The translations under genes and the position numbers were made by a program. The notes beneath the pieces were generated by a model. The model made no database searches and was not told the DNA's origin. It saw only the letters and a program-made list of their open reading frames with translations. A stretch of 64,000 bases of DNA, taken from the NCBI GenBank assembly GCA_020056225.1, contig JAGVIE010000048.1, positions 1 through 64,000 of the forward strand. The letters run 5' to 3'. Of this stretch, positions 9,352 to 57,457 are shown one piece after another. Within the stretch, counting starts at the first letter, position 1; each line of letters begins with the position of its first letter. The DNA is from Bacteroidota bacterium (GTDB taxonomy: Bacteria; Bacteroidota; Ignavibacteria; UBA10030; SZUA-254).

Positions 9352-10278
9352 TTATTTATTCATCTTTTCCTGAAAATATTTCACAGTCATTTCGAGACCT
9401 TCTTTTAAATTCATTTTCGGCTGCCAGCCAAAAACTTTCTTGATATAAGAATTGTCAAGAACGCTTCGCTGTTGCTCGCCTTTTTTTGCAGGTCCGTGAA
9501 TCTCAGAGCATTCTGATTTCGAAGACTGCTTGATCGATGTAAAAAGTTCATTGACATCCGATTCGATGCCTGTTCCAACATTGAAAATATCGGATTCGGG
9601 ATGATTCAATGCAAACATATTTGCACGCACCACATCCCCAACGAATGTATAATCACGGGTTTGTTTGCCGTCGCCATTTATTATCGGCTGTTGACCGGCG
9701 AGCATCTTGCTCGCAAATATAGCTATTACACCGGCTTCACCATGCGGGTTCTGACGGGGTCCATATACGTTCGCATATCTCAGGCAGATATACTGCAAAC
9801 CATACACCGCCTGATAAAAAAATAAATATTTTTCGATTGACAGCTTGGCAATACCATAAGGAGACAGCGGGCGTACAGGATGTGCTTCATCTGCCGGGAA
9901 ATAATCTTGCTCGCCATAGATCGCGCCGCCGGTAGAAGCAAAGATGAATTTTTTCACACCGAACTTGACACAATTCTCAAGCAAGTTGATTGACCCGACT
10001 ATATTCACCGAGGCATCGAATATCGGATCGTCGACAGATTTCCGTACATCCATTTGTGCCGCATGATGGATTACTACATCAATGTTTTCTTGCCGGAATA
10101 CTTCACGAACTTTTTCATCCCGTATATCCATATTAATGAATTTCGATTTGGGATTCACGTTTTCCATTTTCCCGGACGACAGATCATCTATGATGACGAC
10201 TTCATTGCCAGCCCCGATACACGCATCCGCGACGTGCGAGCCGATGAATCCGGCGCCGCCTGTAATTAGTATTTTCAA
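9352..10278 (-). CDS. NAD-dependent nucleotide-sugar epimerase/dehydratase (UDP-glucose 4-epimerase-like)
   Basis: A 308-residue extended short-chain dehydrogenase. I use the TTG at 10278 because AGGGG sits six bases upstream and the product then begins (M)KILITGGAGFIGSH, with the Rossmann GGxGFIG at residues 7-13. An ATG at 10332 would add 18 unlikely residues. The catalytic YxxxK is Tyr141/Lys145 in SPYGIAKLSIEK, with Ser115/Thr116 before it. The YGPRQNPHGEAGVIAIF loop is typical of UDP-glucose/UDP-N-acetylglucosamine 4-epimerases. It probably supplies sugars for surface polysaccharide, which fits the glycosyltransferase two genes upstream. The next gene, meaB, begins two bases downstream. 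Confidence 0.85.
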   Translation of the reverse strand: MKILITGGAGFIGSHVADACIGAGNEVVIIDDLSSGKMENVNPKSKFINMDIRDEKVREVFRQENIDVVIHHAAQMDVRKSVDDPIFDASVNIVGSINLLENCVKFGVKKFIFASTGGAIYGEQDYFPADEAHPVRPLSPYGIAKLSIEKYLFFYQAVYGLQYICLRYANVYGPRQNPHGEAGVIAIFASKMLAGQQPIINGDGKQTRDYTFVGDVVRANMFALNHPESDIFNVGTGIESDVNELFTSIKQSSKSECSEIHGPAKKGEQQRSVLDNSYIKKVFGWQPKMNLKEGLEMTVKYFQEKMNK

Positions 10279-10360
10279 ATTTACCCCTTGTATTTGTTTA
10301 CTGAATAAGCGCGTAGATTGCCGAGGCAACAACTCTGCGTCTCTGCGGCGATATAATATT

Positions 10361-51103: not shown

Positions 51104-51925
51104 ATGACCCCTGAACTTGAATCCAAATATATCCGGCTGCAATCTATTCTCCGCGAGATGGGGAATTTAGTCATCGGATACTCCGGCGGCGTGGACAGCA
51201 CTCTTCTTCTTAAAGTAGCTGTGGACGTACTGGATAATAATGCACTTGCTGTGATTGGAAAATCGGAGACCTATCCTCTTCACGAATACGAGGAGGCAAT
51301 CCGAATTGCCAAATCTCTTGGAGCGCGATGGGAAGAAATCCGGACAGAAGAAACAGATAATTTAAAATTCAAAGAAAATCCGATCGACAGATGCTACCAT
51401 TGTAAAACCGAATTATTTTCCAAGTTGCATCTAATCGCAAAAGAGAAGGGATTCAACTGGATTGCCGATGGCGCAATTACCGACGACCTTGCTGATTTCC
51501 GCCCCGGCATGAAAGCCGAGAAGGAACAAAACGTCCGCTCTCCTCTGCTTGAAGCAGGTTTTACTAAGGTTGATGTAAGAGAGCTATCAAAACATTTGGG
51601 ATTACCTACCTGGGATAAGGGTTCATTCGCTTGTCTCTCATCCCGCTTTCCTTACGGCACCTCGATTACCAAGGAAGCTCTTCAAAAAATCGACGCGGCT
51701 GAAAATACATTACGGGAATCTGGCTTCAAGTATTATAGAGTGCGTTATCATGACGAAAAAACCGCTCGAATTGAAGTAGGGACTGAAGAAATAGGGCGCC
51801 TGCTCGATAACGAACTTCGAGCTAAAATCGTTGACAGATTCAAGCAACTGGGTTTTATTTACATTACACTCGACCTGCAGGGTTATCGCACCGGTTCGAT
51901 GAATGAGACATTACCGAACAAATAG
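51104..51925 (+). CDS. larE: ATP-dependent sacrificial sulfur transferase LarE
   Basis: A 273-residue PP-loop protein. I use the ATG at 51104; a TTG at 51092 is possible. The PP-loop SGGVDSTLLLK (27-37) activates the carboxylate of the nickel-pincer precursor with ATP. Cys177 in SFACLSSRFPYG sits at the sacrificial-cysteine position, whose sulfur is given up to make the cofactor of lactate racemase. RCYHCK (96-101) is the second Cys pair. Only one Cys lies in the C-terminal part, so a sulfur-donating rather than Fe-S type is likely. No larA, larB or larC is in the window. The 3' half is duplicated at 53736-54190. Confidence 0.92.
   Translation: MTPELESKYIRLQSILREMGNLVIGYSGGVDSTLLLKVAVDVLDNNALAVIGKSETYPLHEYEEAIRIAKSLGARWEEIRTEETDNLKFKENPIDRCYHCKTELFSKLHLIAKEKGFNWIADGAITDDLADFRPGMKAEKEQNVRSPLLEAGFTKVDVRELSKHLGLPTWDKGSFACLSSRFPYGTSITKEALQKIDAAENTLRESGFKYYRVRYHDEKTARIEVGTEEIGRLLDNELRAKIVDRFKQLGFIYITLDLQGYRTGSMNETLPNK
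51455..51909. repeat. Duplicated segment of larE, original copy
   Basis: This 455-base segment, covering larE codons from Asn119 nearly to the stop, matches 53736-54190 at an offset of 2281 bases. By eye there are about 25 differences (near 94-95% identity). Of 24 changed codons, 21 are synonymous. Similarity stops sharply on both sides. Confidence 0.9.
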
Positions 51926-52278
51926 ATGTAATATCATCTAAAAAACTCAAAAAACACAAAAAAAAGGGAAATGGGCAACCTGATATTTACGTATAAGGTT
52001 GAGTTGCTTTAAAGAAAAATAGGATTTATATCGCTACTGTTCATTCCCCCATACTAATACCAGAAATGAGGATAGTAAAAGTAAGATAGAAATCTAATTG
52101 ATAGTTCTCAGCAATTTGTTGAGAAGAAAAATAAAAATAATTTATTGCACAAAGAGGTGTCATATAATGACAGAGGAACGTGTAAAGATAAGAGAATTTA
52201 ACATAACCCACTTGCATTCTAATAGAATTAGAATGATGTGGGTTTTGTGCCGAACATTTCAAAAAGAATAATAGAAGA
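51926..52278. other. AT-rich gap after larE; no gene
   Basis: No credible ORF. Composition is clearly more AT-rich than larE. The only structure is a long hairpin at 52205-52244, close to the next gene. The region, with the lipoprotein that follows, lies between the two copies of the larE tail and may be inserted DNA. Confidence 0.5.
52205..52247 (+). terminator. Long hairpin followed by TTT
   Basis: AACCCAC (52205-52211) pairs with GTGGGTT (52238-52244) and CATTCTAAT (52215-52223) with ATTAGAATG (52227-52235), with a small internal mismatch and a three-base loop. TTTTG follows. It could terminate larE or be a cruciform associated with inserted DNA. Sixteen paired bases is unusually long for this window. 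Confidence 0.5.
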
Positions 52279-53436
52279 ATGAATATGAAAATGTATATTA
52301 CCATAATTCTGACATTACTTCTTTTTGCGAGTTGTAAACAAGAGGGACCAGTGGATAGCATTAATAATGGGTTGCCAGAAACTATACCTGCATTGTTTGC
52401 TTCTGTCGATGGAAATTGGAATGGGATTTGGGTGTTCGATACTGATTCTCTCAAAATTATCGATAGTATGTATACTGGTCCGGTGGGAGTTCCATTCTTT
52501 TTAGAATTTTCACCTAATTACACTGTATGGTACTCAATATGGGAATCATCACTACATAATTATGAACTTTTTGCAGTTGACGCAGGAACAAAAACAATTC
52601 TACGTAGGGTGAAAACCGAAGAAAGATCTATGACATTTCTGAAAACAAGAGGCCTGTTAGTAACATACGATCGAAAAATTCAATTTTTTAACGATGAAAC
52701 ATTTTCATTAGTTCACAAAGATTCGATTGGTATTCTTTGGCGATTAGTTCGCGCGCCCGGTGAAAGAAAACTTTGCGCAATGTATTGCAATTATAATGGA
52801 GGAGGATTTGCCGGTATTATAGTTTATAATCTCGAGACGTTAAGTATTGATCGGAAATTAAGGGTGGCCGATAGCTTAAGGCAAAGGGGAATGGCACCAG
52901 CCGACCTTAAAATCTCGCCCGATGGAAGATATCTTTTCCTTACGGTTTTTAATTGGATCGGTGGTGGCGGATTCGGTTCATTCCATGCAATAGATTTGAC
53001 TACTGACAGCGTAGTCGCAGAGTACCCGTGCGGAAAATATTCACAGATGGGCGTTAGTCCAGATAGTCGGTATGTTTATATAAGTGATCCTGCAGGTTAT
53101 CTATATGAAATGAATCCTACAGGTCATCTTTTACGCTATGATGTCCATGCTCGCACGATGGAACTCTTTATTGATTGGGTACCATACAATTTGACCGGTG
53201 GTGCGCATGGAAGCCGTTTGATAACAGATCAAATAGTATTAATGCCGGATAATAAAACAATGTTTCTAACAACCCTCAATGGTGAAACACCCGAAGGTAA
53301 GAACATAGCAATAATGAAAGTTGATTTAAATACAAAACAGGTGCTAGGTGTGTACTCCATCCCACTTGATCATCGTGGGTATATTACTGAACAAATTCGG
53401 AGATTAAAACTTGGTATGTACGTCATGAAAAAATAA
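52279..53436 (+). CDS. Lipoprotein with a beta-propeller fold
   Basis: A 385-residue lipoprotein with lipobox LFASC near residue 19 (CKQEG after it). The remainder looks like a seven-bladed YVTN/WD40-type propeller: LKISPDGRYLFLTV, MGVSPDSRYVYISD and VLMPDNKTMFLTTL are blade signatures. No enzymatic motif. It is probably exposed at the outer membrane. Base composition and codon use are more AT-rich than larE or the protease-barrel gene, and it lies between the duplicated larE segments, so it may have entered with the rearrangement. Confidence 0.75.
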   Translation: MNMKMYITIILTLLLFASCKQEGPVDSINNGLPETIPALFASVDGNWNGIWVFDTDSLKIIDSMYTGPVGVPFFLEFSPNYTVWYSIWESSLHNYELFAVDAGTKTILRRVKTEERSMTFLKTRGLLVTYDRKIQFFNDETFSLVHKDSIGILWRLVRAPGERKLCAMYCNYNGGGFAGIIVYNLETLSIDRKLRVADSLRQRGMAPADLKISPDGRYLFLTVFNWIGGGGFGSFHAIDLTTDSVVAEYPCGKYSQMGVSPDSRYVYISDPAGYLYEMNPTGHLLRYDVHARTMELFIDWVPYNLTGGAHGSRLITDQIVLMPDNKTMFLTTLNGETPEGKNIAIMKVDLNTKQVLGVYSIPLDHRGYITEQIRRLKLGMYVMKK

Positions 53437-53461
53437 ATATTAGCAATAAGAGGTGATAATT

Positions 53462-53521
53462 ATGAAATTGTATAGCAAGGCTCCTTCGAAAAGATACCAT
53501 AGCTATATTGATCTGGCGTGA
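53462..53521 (+). CDS. Possible 19-residue ORF
   Basis: ATG at 53462 is preceded by AAGAGGTGATAATT, a good ribosome site, and runs 19 codons (MKLYSKAPSKRYHSYIDLA) to TGA. No similarity recognised. It could be a leader peptide or a decayed gene start. It lies between the lipoprotein and the chimeric ORF and ends at the foot of a hairpin. Confidence 0.2.
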   Translation: MKLYSKAPSKRYHSYIDLA

Positions 53522-53571
53522 TCGTTTGATGGCAGGGACAATCTCTGTCAAACGAAACCATTTCTTTTTTA
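53522..53571 (+). terminator. Hairpin with T-rich tract
   Basis: TCGTTTGA (53522-53529) pairs with TCAAACGA (53548-53555). CAG/CTG extends the stem inside. TTTCTTTTTT follows about five bases later. It lies between the lipoprotein and the chimeric ORF and would separate their transcription. Confidence 0.45.
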
Positions 53572-53627
53572 AGTTGTTATAAATTAAACAATTTGTTCAA
53601 TAATTTCAAGAAAGGAGTTTTTATAAA

Positions 53628-54221
53628 GTGAAACTCATTCTTATTATCCTCAACAGCCTCCTGATTACACTAACGATGTATGCACAGGATTATTACTATT
53701 CGGACGATCGTAAGATATACATCACGAAATCGGATAACTGGATTGCCGATGGCGCAATTACCGATGACCTTGCTGATTTCCGCCCCGGCATGAAAGCCGA
53801 AAAGGAACAAAACGTCCGCTCACCTTTGCTTGAAGCAGGTTTTACTAAGGTCGATGTAAGAGAGCTTTCAAAACATTTGGGATTGCCTACCTGGGATAAG
53901 GGTTCATTCGCTTGTCTCTCATCCCGATTTCCTTACGGTACACCGATTACAAAGGAAGCTCTTCAAAAAATCGACGCGGCTGAAAATACATTGCGGGAAT
54001 CAGGCTTCAAGTATTATAGAGTGCGTTATCATGACGAAAAAACCGCTCGAATAGAAGTAGGAACCGAAGAAATCGAACGCCTGTTCGATAACGAACTTCG
54101 AGCTAAAATCGTTGACAGATTCAAGCAATTGGGTTTTATTTACATTACACTCGACCTGCAGGGTTATCGCACCGGCTCAATGAACGAGATCTTCCCGCAG
54201 CACGAAAAACTTGCGAAGTAA
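53628..54221 (+). CDS. Chimeric ORF: secretion signal fused to the C-terminal half of LarE
   Basis: A 197-residue ORF starting at GTG with an excellent AAGAAAGGAG ribosome site. Residues 1-20 are a signal peptide (LILIILNSLLITLTMYAQ), followed by YYYSDDRKIYITKSD, which resembles the mature start of secreted Bacteroidota proteins such as S8-type T9SS peptidases. From Asn37 on it matches LarE to near its end, with only three amino-acid changes (Ser to Pro, Gly to Glu, Leu to Phe) in about 150 residues. The tail differs (FPQHEKLAK). The sacrificial Cys (Cys96 here) is kept, but the PP-loop is absent, so it cannot be an intact LarE. It is either a rearrangement product whose secreted-protein start captured the larE tail, or a maintained exported protein. 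Confidence 0.75.
   Translation: MKLILIILNSLLITLTMYAQDYYYSDDRKIYITKSDNWIADGAITDDLADFRPGMKAEKEQNVRSPLLEAGFTKVDVRELSKHLGLPTWDKGSFACLSSRFPYGTPITKEALQKIDAAENTLRESGFKYYRVRYHDEKTARIEVGTEEIERLFDNELRAKIVDRFKQLGFIYITLDLQGYRTGSMNEIFPQHEKLAK
53736..54190. repeat. Duplicated segment of larE, second copy
   Basis: Partner of 51455-51909. It is in the same orientation and the same reading phase, joined to unrelated upstream coding sequence at AACTGG. The last shared bases are GAGA, after which the two copies diverge (CATTACC in larE, TCTTCCC here). Confidence 0.9.
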
Positions 54222-54289
54222 CCTCATGAACATTGCATTTGCTCTCGTTGTTTCGTAATTTTAAGTACAGAAACGGAGAAGACAGTCCA

Positions 54290-57200
54290 ATGAAAGTATT
54301 CAAAATATTCTTTGCTGTTATCATATTTCAATTCACAATTGGGATTTCTTCTCTTCATGCGCAGGATATTCAATTCGGAAAGAATAAAGTCCAATACAAA
54401 AACTTCGACTGGTACTACATCCAGACGACACACTTCGATGTTTACTTTACTCTGGGTGGAGAAGCAGTTGCCAACTTCGCCGCAGACGTTGCCGAATCGT
54501 CTTACTACTCAATCAGCAAATCGTTCCGGTATCAAACCATAAACCGTATTCCGATAATCGTTTACAACTCACACAACGAATTCCAGCAGACGAATGTAGT
54601 AAGCGATTATCTTGAAGAAGGTATCGGCGGCGTAACAGAGCTGTTCAAAAATCGCGTCGTCGTGCCTTTCGAAGGCGATTATAAAAAATTCCGGCATGTC
54701 ATCCACCATGAACTGGTGCACGGCGTCATCAACGATATGTTTTACGGCGGTTCAATCCAATCGATTATTACTAACAACATCACGCTACAACTTCCGCTCT
54801 GGTTTAACGAAGGATTAGCTGAATATGAAGCGCTAAAATGGGATACCGATTCCGATATGTTTCTGCGTGATGCTACTATCCATGAATATCTTCCGAAGAT
54901 CGACCAGCTTTACGGTTACTTCGCGTATCGCGGTGGTCAATCGGTTTGGAATTATATCGCGACAAAATATGGCGACCAGAAAATCGCCGAGATACTCAGC
55001 AGGATTAAAGGAACACGCAGTGTTGATCAGGGACTACGCAGTGCGATTGGTTTATCGTCCGAAGAACTTTCGGAACGCTGGCAGAAAGAGCAAAAAATCC
55101 TTTACTGGCCCGATATTGCTAAACGAAGCGAGCCGGGCGACTATGCAAAGAAGCTGACCGATCACACCAAGGATGGAAGTTTCTATAATACAAGCCCTTC
55201 AATCTCGCCGCAGGGTGATCGGATCGCGTTCATATCGAACCGTGATGATTATTTCGATGTCTTTATCATGGATGCTATTGACGGAACAATTATAGATAAA
55301 TTAGTGAAGGGACAGCGCACTGCCGATTTTGAAGAGCTTCACTTGCTTACCCCCGGAATGTCATGGTCACCGGATGGTAAATTTTTGGCTCTTGCCGCAA
55401 AAAGCGGGGATCAGGATGCTATTATTATCATCGAGGTTAATTCGGGTAAGGACCAGAAATTAGAATTCGGGTTGGATGGAATTTTTTCGGTACAATGGTC
55501 ATTTCTTGATTCCTCGCATCAACGCGGAAGATTAGCGTTTGTCGGAATCAAGGGAAATGAATCCGACATATACATCTACGATTTGGATTCGAAAACACTC
55601 GAGAATCTTACGAACGATATTTTCACGGACGCGGATCCTGCATGGTCTTCAGATGGTAAGGCAATTTATTTTTCATCCGACCGGAAGAATTTTACCGACC
55701 AGGCAACCATTCCCGCGGATTTTAAAATTCAACGATTCGATTATAAACAGCGCGACCTTTATTCGGTAAATGTCGGTTCAAGAATAATCGAGCGTATTAC
55801 AGATCTGCCGAACAGCGATGAAACATCACCTACTGCCGCGCCAGACGGAAAACATTTATATTTTATCTCCGACATGAACGGAATCAATAACATCTTTATC
55901 AAGAACCTCGATAGCGATTCCGTGTACGCGAGAACAAACTCATTGAGCGGGGTTTATCAGCTATCAATTTCCGGCGATGGCAACAAGATGGTATTCAGCT
56001 CTCTGAATAATGCAGGATTCGATATGTTCTTGATGAGAAACCCTATGGATCGTGATAAAAAAATTACCGCACTGGAGCTTACCGAATTCTTCAAACGATT
56101 AACAGCTCCTCCCACTCATGTAGACACGGGCGAAGTTAAAAGCGAAGAGATCGCAATCAGTCATGACGTCGTCATCAAACTTGAGAATAAAGATTCGATA
56201 AATGTTTCAATCGATGATGGGCGGGTTGACCTGAAAAACTTCATCTTTAGTGACGAATTCAAGCAAAAACCGGCATCGAAATCCGATTCTTCCGCTTCTA
56301 TCGCAATCGCCAACAACATCGATGAACACGGCAATTATAAGGTGAATAAATATAAATTAAATTTCTCGCCCGATATCATCTATGGAAATGCAGGTTATAA
56401 TACTCTGTACGGTATTCAAGGCTCGACTATAATGGCATTCAGCGATATGCTGGGCGATCATCAGATATTTTTGCTTCTGGATTTGATCTTCGATCTGAAG
56501 AACAGCGATTATGCCCTTGCCTATTTTTATTTACCAAAACGAATCGACTATGGCATCCAGGGATTTCACAGCGTCCGTTTCATCAGTATGTTCGACAAGA
56601 ATGATCTAGACTCTGTCGACTACAGATTCAGAAACTACGGACTTAGTTTAATGGCATCATATCCAATAAATAAATTCAATCGATTGGATTTCAACCTTGC
56701 CTGGATAAATCTTTCCCGCGATAATCTGACGTATGTTGACGAGCCACCGCAGAGACGCAACCTGATCACGCCATCATTGAGTTATGTACACGACACAAGT
56801 TTGTGGGGGTTAATCGCACCGGCAAACGGCGAAAGATATAGTATTAATATTTTAGGAAGTCCGAAATTTAACGATCAATCACTCGGGTTCACGACAATCA
56901 CTTTCGATTACCGACGGTATTTTAGATTATGGAAAAATTATACTCTCGCTTTACGTTTTGCGGGTGGTGGAAGTTATGGAAAGAATCCGCAAAGGTTCGT
57001 TATCGGAGGAATGGATAACTGGATCAATCGCCGTTTTGAAAACAACCGCATACCGGTAGAGAACGCGGAAGACTTCGTTTTTTTAACTTCGGGATTACCG
57101 CTGCGGGGGTATAACTACGGCGCACGTATGGGAACCAAGTATGGTTTGTTCAATACCGAATTCCGGTTTCCTTTGCTTGGCTACTTTGCCGCAGGACCGC

Positions 57201-57457
57201 TTCCTATTTTCCTGCAAAGTTTTAACGGTGTTTTATTTCTGGATATGGGCGGCGCCTGGTATTGGAGAAAAGATTTCAGAGCGTTTGCAAAGGACGAGAA
57301 CAACACAACTTACATGCGAGACTTGCTGACAGGAACCGGATACGGAGTCAGAATGATTTTTCTAGGCTTTTTGCTGAAGATGGATATAGCATGGGCTTAC
57401 GATCTGAGAAGTTTTTCTACGCCGAAATATTATTTCTCACTCGGCGCGGATATCTGA
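54290..57457 (+). CDS. Zinc metalloprotease / TolB-like propeller / outer-membrane barrel fusion
   Basis: A 1055-residue envelope protein; the ATG at 54290 follows GGAGAA and gives a signal peptide (KVFKIFFAVIIFQFTIG...HAQ). Residues about 25-300 are a peptidase_MA-like gluzincin: HELVH at 140-144 and WFNEGLAEYEA with the third ligand Glu. Residues 300-600 form a WD40/PD40 propeller (SISPQGDRIAFISNRDD, GMSWSPDGKFLALA, DPAWSSDGKAIYFSSDR, TAAPDGKHLYFISD). A 100-residue linker precedes a C-terminal Omp85/BamA-like barrel (680-1055) that contains RYFRLWKNYTLALR, GGMDNWINRR and LPLRGYNY, and ends in an amphipathic strand. The three-part fusion is known in this phylum but uncharacterised; it could be an outer-membrane anchored protease. 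Confidence 0.8.
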   Translation: MKVFKIFFAVIIFQFTIGISSLHAQDIQFGKNKVQYKNFDWYYIQTTHFDVYFTLGGEAVANFAADVAESSYYSISKSFRYQTINRIPIIVYNSHNEFQQTNVVSDYLEEGIGGVTELFKNRVVVPFEGDYKKFRHVIHHELVHGVINDMFYGGSIQSIITNNITLQLPLWFNEGLAEYEALKWDTDSDMFLRDATIHEYLPKIDQLYGYFAYRGGQSVWNYIATKYGDQKIAEILSRIKGTRSVDQGLRSAIGLSSEELSERWQKEQKILYWPDIAKRSEPGDYAKKLTDHTKDGSFYNTSPSISPQGDRIAFISNRDDYFDVFIMDAIDGTIIDKLVKGQRTADFEELHLLTPGMSWSPDGKFLALAAKSGDQDAIIIIEVNSGKDQKLEFGLDGIFSVQWSFLDSSHQRGRLAFVGIKGNESDIYIYDLDSKTLENLTNDIFTDADPAWSSDGKAIYFSSDRKNFTDQATIPADFKIQRFDYKQRDLYSVNVGSRIIERITDLPNSDETSPTAAPDGKHLYFISDMNGINNIFIKNLDSDSVYARTNSLSGVYQLSISGDGNKMVFSSLNNAGFDMFLMRNPMDRDKKITALELTEFFKRLTAPPTHVDTGEVKSEEIAISHDVVIKLENKDSINVSIDDGRVDLKNFIFSDEFKQKPASKSDSSASIAIANNIDEHGNYKVNKYKLNFSPDIIYGNAGYNTLYGIQGSTIMAFSDMLGDHQIFLLLDLIFDLKNSDYALAYFYLPKRIDYGIQGFHSVRFISMFDKNDLDSVDYRFRNYGLSLMASYPINKFNRLDFNLAWINLSRDNLTYVDEPPQRRNLITPSLSYVHDTSLWGLIAPANGERYSINILGSPKFNDQSLGFTTITFDYRRYFRLWKNYTLALRFAGGGSYGKNPQRFVIGGMDNWINRRFENNRIPVENAEDFVFLTSGLPLRGYNYGARMGTKYGLFNTEFRFPLLGYFAAGPLPIFLQSFNGVLFLDMGGAWYWRKDFRAFAKDENNTTYMRDLLTGTGYGVRMIFLGFLLKMDIAWAYDLRSFSTPKYYFSLGADI

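Follow-up and report, generated by a model that had tools for sequence, protein, structure and literature searches.

The window, by which we mean the whole 64,000-nucleotide stretch of DNA that was analysed, contains an open reading frame that begins like a secreted protein and ends like LarE. The question is whether this fusion is a new exported sulfur-donor domain or the scar of a rearrangement, the two possibilities left by a preliminary description. The features along the locus are as follows.

51104–51925, plus strand: complete larE (left copy) with the PP-loop SGGVDST and Cys97, Cys100 and Cys177, assigned from TIGR00268, identity to the relative G001 and alignment.
51455–51907, plus strand: the larE stretch, from Asn118 on, that occurs twice (repeat comparison).
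51908–51992, plus strand: 3′ end and flank of the left larE; 51881–51992, spanning this end and running beyond the stop, aligns with the larE flank of G001, the nearest relative (82% over about 113 nt).
52000–52253, plus strand: leader-like repeat with a strong hairpin, the likely start of an inserted unit; two further copies in the genome.
52279–53436, plus strand: gene of the insert for a 385-aa lipoprotein-like protein (N-terminus LLLFASC), with no Pfam or NCBIfam match and one clear relative (36%, G030:C65) among 40 genomes.
53592–53627, plus strand: leader of the signal ORF with its ribosome site; a 30-nt part (53592–53621) matches at 87% the leader directly 3′ of larE in G001.
53628–53735, plus strand: 36-codon signal-peptide-like start of a putative secreted-protein gene, cut at the junction (from the sequence and a modelled helix at 2–21).
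53736–54221, plus strand: second larE, 5′-truncated (codons 118 on) and fused in frame, with its own tail (repeat comparison, TIGR00268).
54222–54289, plus strand: short stretch 5′ of the Omp85-type gene; AACATTGC...GTAATTTTAAG is similar to the corresponding upstream stretches of G001, G013 and G009.
54290–57457, plus strand: Peptidase_MA/PD40/Omp85-like gene, the probable ancestral downstream neighbour of larE; the listed ORF starts at TTG 54233, and the C-terminal part is Omp85-like by our reading of the sequence rather than by a tool match.

The stretches 51455–51907 and 53736–54188 form a direct repeat with 94.5% identity over 453 nt, without indels and at a spacing of 2281, which is far beyond chance. 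The identity drops abruptly at both edges, with 20–22 and 17 differences per 30 nt outside them and 0–4 inside. This duplication had been described with ends at 51909 and 54190, but the similarity stops at about 51907/54188, past which the C-terminal tails diverge to ETLPNK (left) and EIFPQHEKLAK (right). The first residue common to both copies, numbered from the ATG at 51104, is Asn118 and not Asn119 as first given. The left frame is open from this ATG to a stop ending at 51925 (273 aa). The frame of the fusion is open from GTG 53628 to a stop ending at 54221 (197 aa), and a ribosome site graded good, AAAGGAG, is located at 53611–53617; the 36-residue secreted-type start with its own GTG and ribosome site was correctly recognised. 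The duplication and the in-frame joining of the signal part to larE are confirmed in the assembled sequence, and joining in frame by itself has a prior chance of one in three. A third copy of the repeat, long inverted repeats and a transposase at the junction were looked for, and none was found. When the fusion was compared with its own genome (3.5 Mb), no match apart from larE itself was obtained.

The same structure could be obtained from an assembly artefact, in which two metagenome strains were joined in one contig. The copies diverge to the extent of strains, the relatives having the locus are Ignavibacteria/Bacteroidota metagenome assemblies, the genome of the window is split into 62 contigs, and the assembly may have taken a wrong path inside the repeat, where exact runs reach 50 nt. 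However, the bases left of the junction share no 21-mer with the remainder of the window and have no close duplicate elsewhere in the genome, and a switch of the graph assembly exactly at the junction is unlikely because no recurring word lies to its left. The junction contains no N, and the completeness and contamination of the genome are 100 and 0.79, respectively. We therefore regard an artefact as unlikely.

The left copy is a LarE by its PP-loop, its three cysteines and its full-length profile match (NCBIfam TIGR00268, 328.5 bits, profile positions 2–259 of 259). It is 77% identical to the LarE of G001, and Cys97, Cys100 and Cys177 are invariant among the aligned relatives. These cysteines are of the CXXC-C type found in most LarE homologues (PMC9283937). 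In the Thermotoga maritima LarE, the corresponding Cys92, Cys95 and Cys172 are the ligands of a [4Fe-4S] cluster required for sulfur transfer, the side-chain sulfur is not lost, and no cysteine is sacrificed (PMC9283937). The left larE resembles this [4Fe-4S]-dependent enzyme in having the PP-loop and all three cysteines, whereas the fusion has the third cysteine only and no PP-loop. The sacrificial LarE of Lactobacillus plantarum has a nearly equivalent cysteine, Cys176, shifted by one residue (PMC9283937), but it is a single cysteine that is consumed, unlike the three-cysteine set found here. Because the LarE of the window has the CXXC-C cysteines as in T. maritima, calling Cys177 sacrificial had borrowed the L. 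plantarum mechanism for a LarE of another type.

The fusion gave 197.8 bits against TIGR00268, above the curated cut-off of 150 bits, though the catalytic N-terminal part is absent. Its match covers only positions 104–259 of 259, in accordance with the earlier remark that the copy has no PP-loop (SGGxDS). Of the cluster ligands only the equivalent of Cys177 is left, and Cys97 and Cys100 are gone. The statement that the copy keeps the donor cysteine is correct as to the residue, and not supported as to the role, since the T. maritima LarE sacrifices none. The fusion has lost essential parts, as gene remnants do. Caution is needed in annotation, because the fusion, with neither PP-loop nor cluster site, scores above the LarE cut-off and would receive the name sacrificial sulfur transferase LarE, next to a complete LarE that is itself of the non-sacrificial cysteine type.

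In the family, a TPR gene is followed by larE and then by the Omp85-type gene (Peptidase_MA, PD40). Between the point where the LarE similarity ends and the start of the Omp85-type gene there are 36–261 bp in eight of the 12 family genomes whose locus could be read (G002, G005, G006, G007, G008, G009, G010 and G012), against 5275 bp in G001, 1609 bp in G013, 3135 bp in G004 and 2368 bp in the window. The inserts carry different genes: G001 has secreted proteins, G013 a secreted gene on the minus strand, and G004 a VapBC-like pair among others. Although G007 and G013 are members of the same genus, an insert is present in G013 only. On contig C214 of G004, two short larE 3′ stubs were found at 9386–9490 and 10211–10279, one frame of which has a stop. 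Partial larE remnants are therefore seen at this locus in two genera. The larE–Omp85 interval is insertion-prone in the family, and it is a useful example of such a locus that leaves gene stubs. The stubs of G004 (L056:9374–10300) lie on either side of a VapBC-like antitoxin/PIN-toxin pair, which precedes the Omp85-type gene. A complete larE and the neighbouring TPR gene were sought in the G004 genome, and neither was found.

In the window, the similarity to G001 stops at 51992 and the repeated leader element starts at 52000, and therefore the unit of leader and lipoprotein gene was probably placed there. The match to G001 resumes at 53592. A distance of 102 bp separates the right larE copy, which has its own tail, from the Omp85 start, and the upstream bases of the Omp85-type gene resemble those of the relatives. 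From this arrangement, the right copy appears to occupy the place of the uninterrupted larE, as in relatives without an insert.

An order of complete copy, foreign unit and truncated copy also fits the geometry of a site-specific or Campbell-type integration, in which a small circular DNA with the 3′ part of larE integrated at larE, restored a complete gene and left a 5′-truncated copy; the recurrence of larE stubs in G004 agrees with it. No recognisable integrase or transposase was found within the 2.3-kb unit, however, and among the inserts of the other genomes, larE repeats flank only that of G004, with none around those of G001 and G013. The stubs of G004 are unequal in length, which argues against a fixed attachment site. 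Such an integration is quite improbable.

The two copies were compared by pairwise counts, and an outgroup was used at the observed sites. Twenty-five codons differ between them, 21 of these synonymously (dS 0.237, dN 0.009, dN/dS 0.037); the dN/dS is 0.029 for the orthologue pair of G007 and G013 and 0.052 for the left copy and G001. Only three differences are nonsynonymous; had the right copy been unconstrained since the split, a simple equal-rate model would give so few with a probability of about 2.5e-7. When the synonymous differences were polarised by G001, 11 fell to the right copy and five to the left, while no nonsynonymous one could be assigned to a side. Nearly all residues that differ between the copies occur in other LarEs. 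There is no excess of nonsynonymous change in the right copy, which fits either a very recent event or constraint. Because the differences are almost only synonymous, like those between LarE orthologues, the right copy probably diverged inside a complete larE and was then cut recently. The low dN/dS would also follow from a maintained fusion. A recent cut is preferred over selection because the constraint matches that of the complete LarE, the differing residues mostly occur in other LarEs, parts that the enzyme needs are gone and the fusion is absent from the relatives searched.

This last point was obtained by searching related lineages, as had been suggested. The fusion was present in none of the 39 relatives searched, and a scan of genomes from 84,980 species gave only LarE-type matches, all without the signal part. 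For the parent gene of the 36-residue signal ORF, the search gave weak matches only, and those inspected were not homologues. The start of the fusion looks like a signal peptide, with K2, a hydrophobic core and YAQ-D, and its export is a prediction. AlphaFold2 models, which were made from shallow alignments of similar depth (8–9 sequences) and serve as supporting evidence, gave a mean pLDDT of 83 for the complete LarE and 59 for the fusion. In the complete LarE, strand 119–122 lies inside the PP-loop domain, and the junction falls at this strand. The block means for LarE 118–180 were 62–95 in the complete protein and about 31–56 in the fusion (about 34–56 over fusion residues 37–100, LarE 118–181), while most of the C-terminal domain (LarE 190–250) was at ~78–93 in the fusion. 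The position of this strand and the low values in the fusion suggest that the cut runs through the nucleotide-binding domain.

A functional exported domain derived from LarE and kept by selection, for example as a periplasmic sulfur donor or as a nucleotide or metal binder, would agree with the open frame, the ribosome site, the plausible signal peptide, the few nonsynonymous differences and the good model confidence of the C-terminal domain (LarE 190–265). We consider it very improbable, because the PP-loop and two of the three cluster cysteines are lost, the nucleotide-binding domain is halved and modelled with low confidence, and the fusion occurs in no relative searched. The constraint pattern is that of the complete cytoplasmic LarE, whereas a changed role should alter it, and promoter-like sites in the region are no commoner than in shuffles. 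On these grounds, the proposal of a new exported sulfur-donor domain is not supported. That the joined gene is young, expressed, exported and selected for a new extracytoplasmic role of the C-terminal domain of LarE is extremely improbable.

The other alternative of the preliminary description, a rearrangement scar, is supported by the locus order, the synonymous divergence, the stubs of G004 and the absence of the fusion elsewhere. We consider it likely that the fusion is a recent scar of illegitimate recombination at an insertion-prone locus, and that it is probably non-functional. A second larE allele, either the native copy or one acquired from a closely related strain, would have stood directly upstream of the Omp85-type gene and been complete until recently under normal LarE constraint. 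An illegitimate recombination or deletion would then have joined larE codon 118 to codon 36 of a secreted-protein gene of the insert; codons 1–117 of the second larE and everything past codon 36 of the secreted gene would have been lost. A single join accounts for the cut ends of both genes and for the position on the Omp85 side. The enzyme would still be provided by the complete larE at 51104–51925. The 197-aa ORF would be a by-product; its protein, if made, would be targeted to the membrane with its domain incomplete and would probably be degraded.

Homology-facilitated illegitimate recombination is a known route to such joins (PMC3240628). Its likeness to the present case is one nonhomologous junction beside a stretch common with the recipient gene; the difference is that here the event is deduced from one sequence, and neither donor nor event was seen. 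Several points stand against a recent dead scar formed in this way. The fully open frame and the good ribosome site count against it, as does the low dN/dS, which a maintained fusion would also show. One simple event between two strains of almost the same sequence would not account for the abrupt end of the similarity at 51907/54188. The genus is represented by one strain only.

In the near-complete genomes G002, G003 and G008, the LarC1 model had no match despite the presence of larE, and larE may thus persist there with no recognisable LarC1. An Rfam search over 50.5–54.5 kb gave no match. The leader element at 52000–52253 of the window occurs also at G000:C10:27164–27443 and G000:C19:1597–1847, and in L083, L084, L094, L120 and L124–L127. 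It is conserved, about 100–250 nt long, and carries a short ORF (MTEERVxIxxxxTTHLHS). There are also a stem (ACCCACTTGCATTC/GAATGxxGTGGGT) with a loop that varies in length, and a short run of T; the fold z is −4.5. Among 40 genomes, it was found in three genera of the family only, in three, up to five and up to three copies. It has no Rfam match, stands 5′ of differing secreted or lipoprotein genes and is a candidate for a cis-regulatory RNA or a mobile promoter unit.
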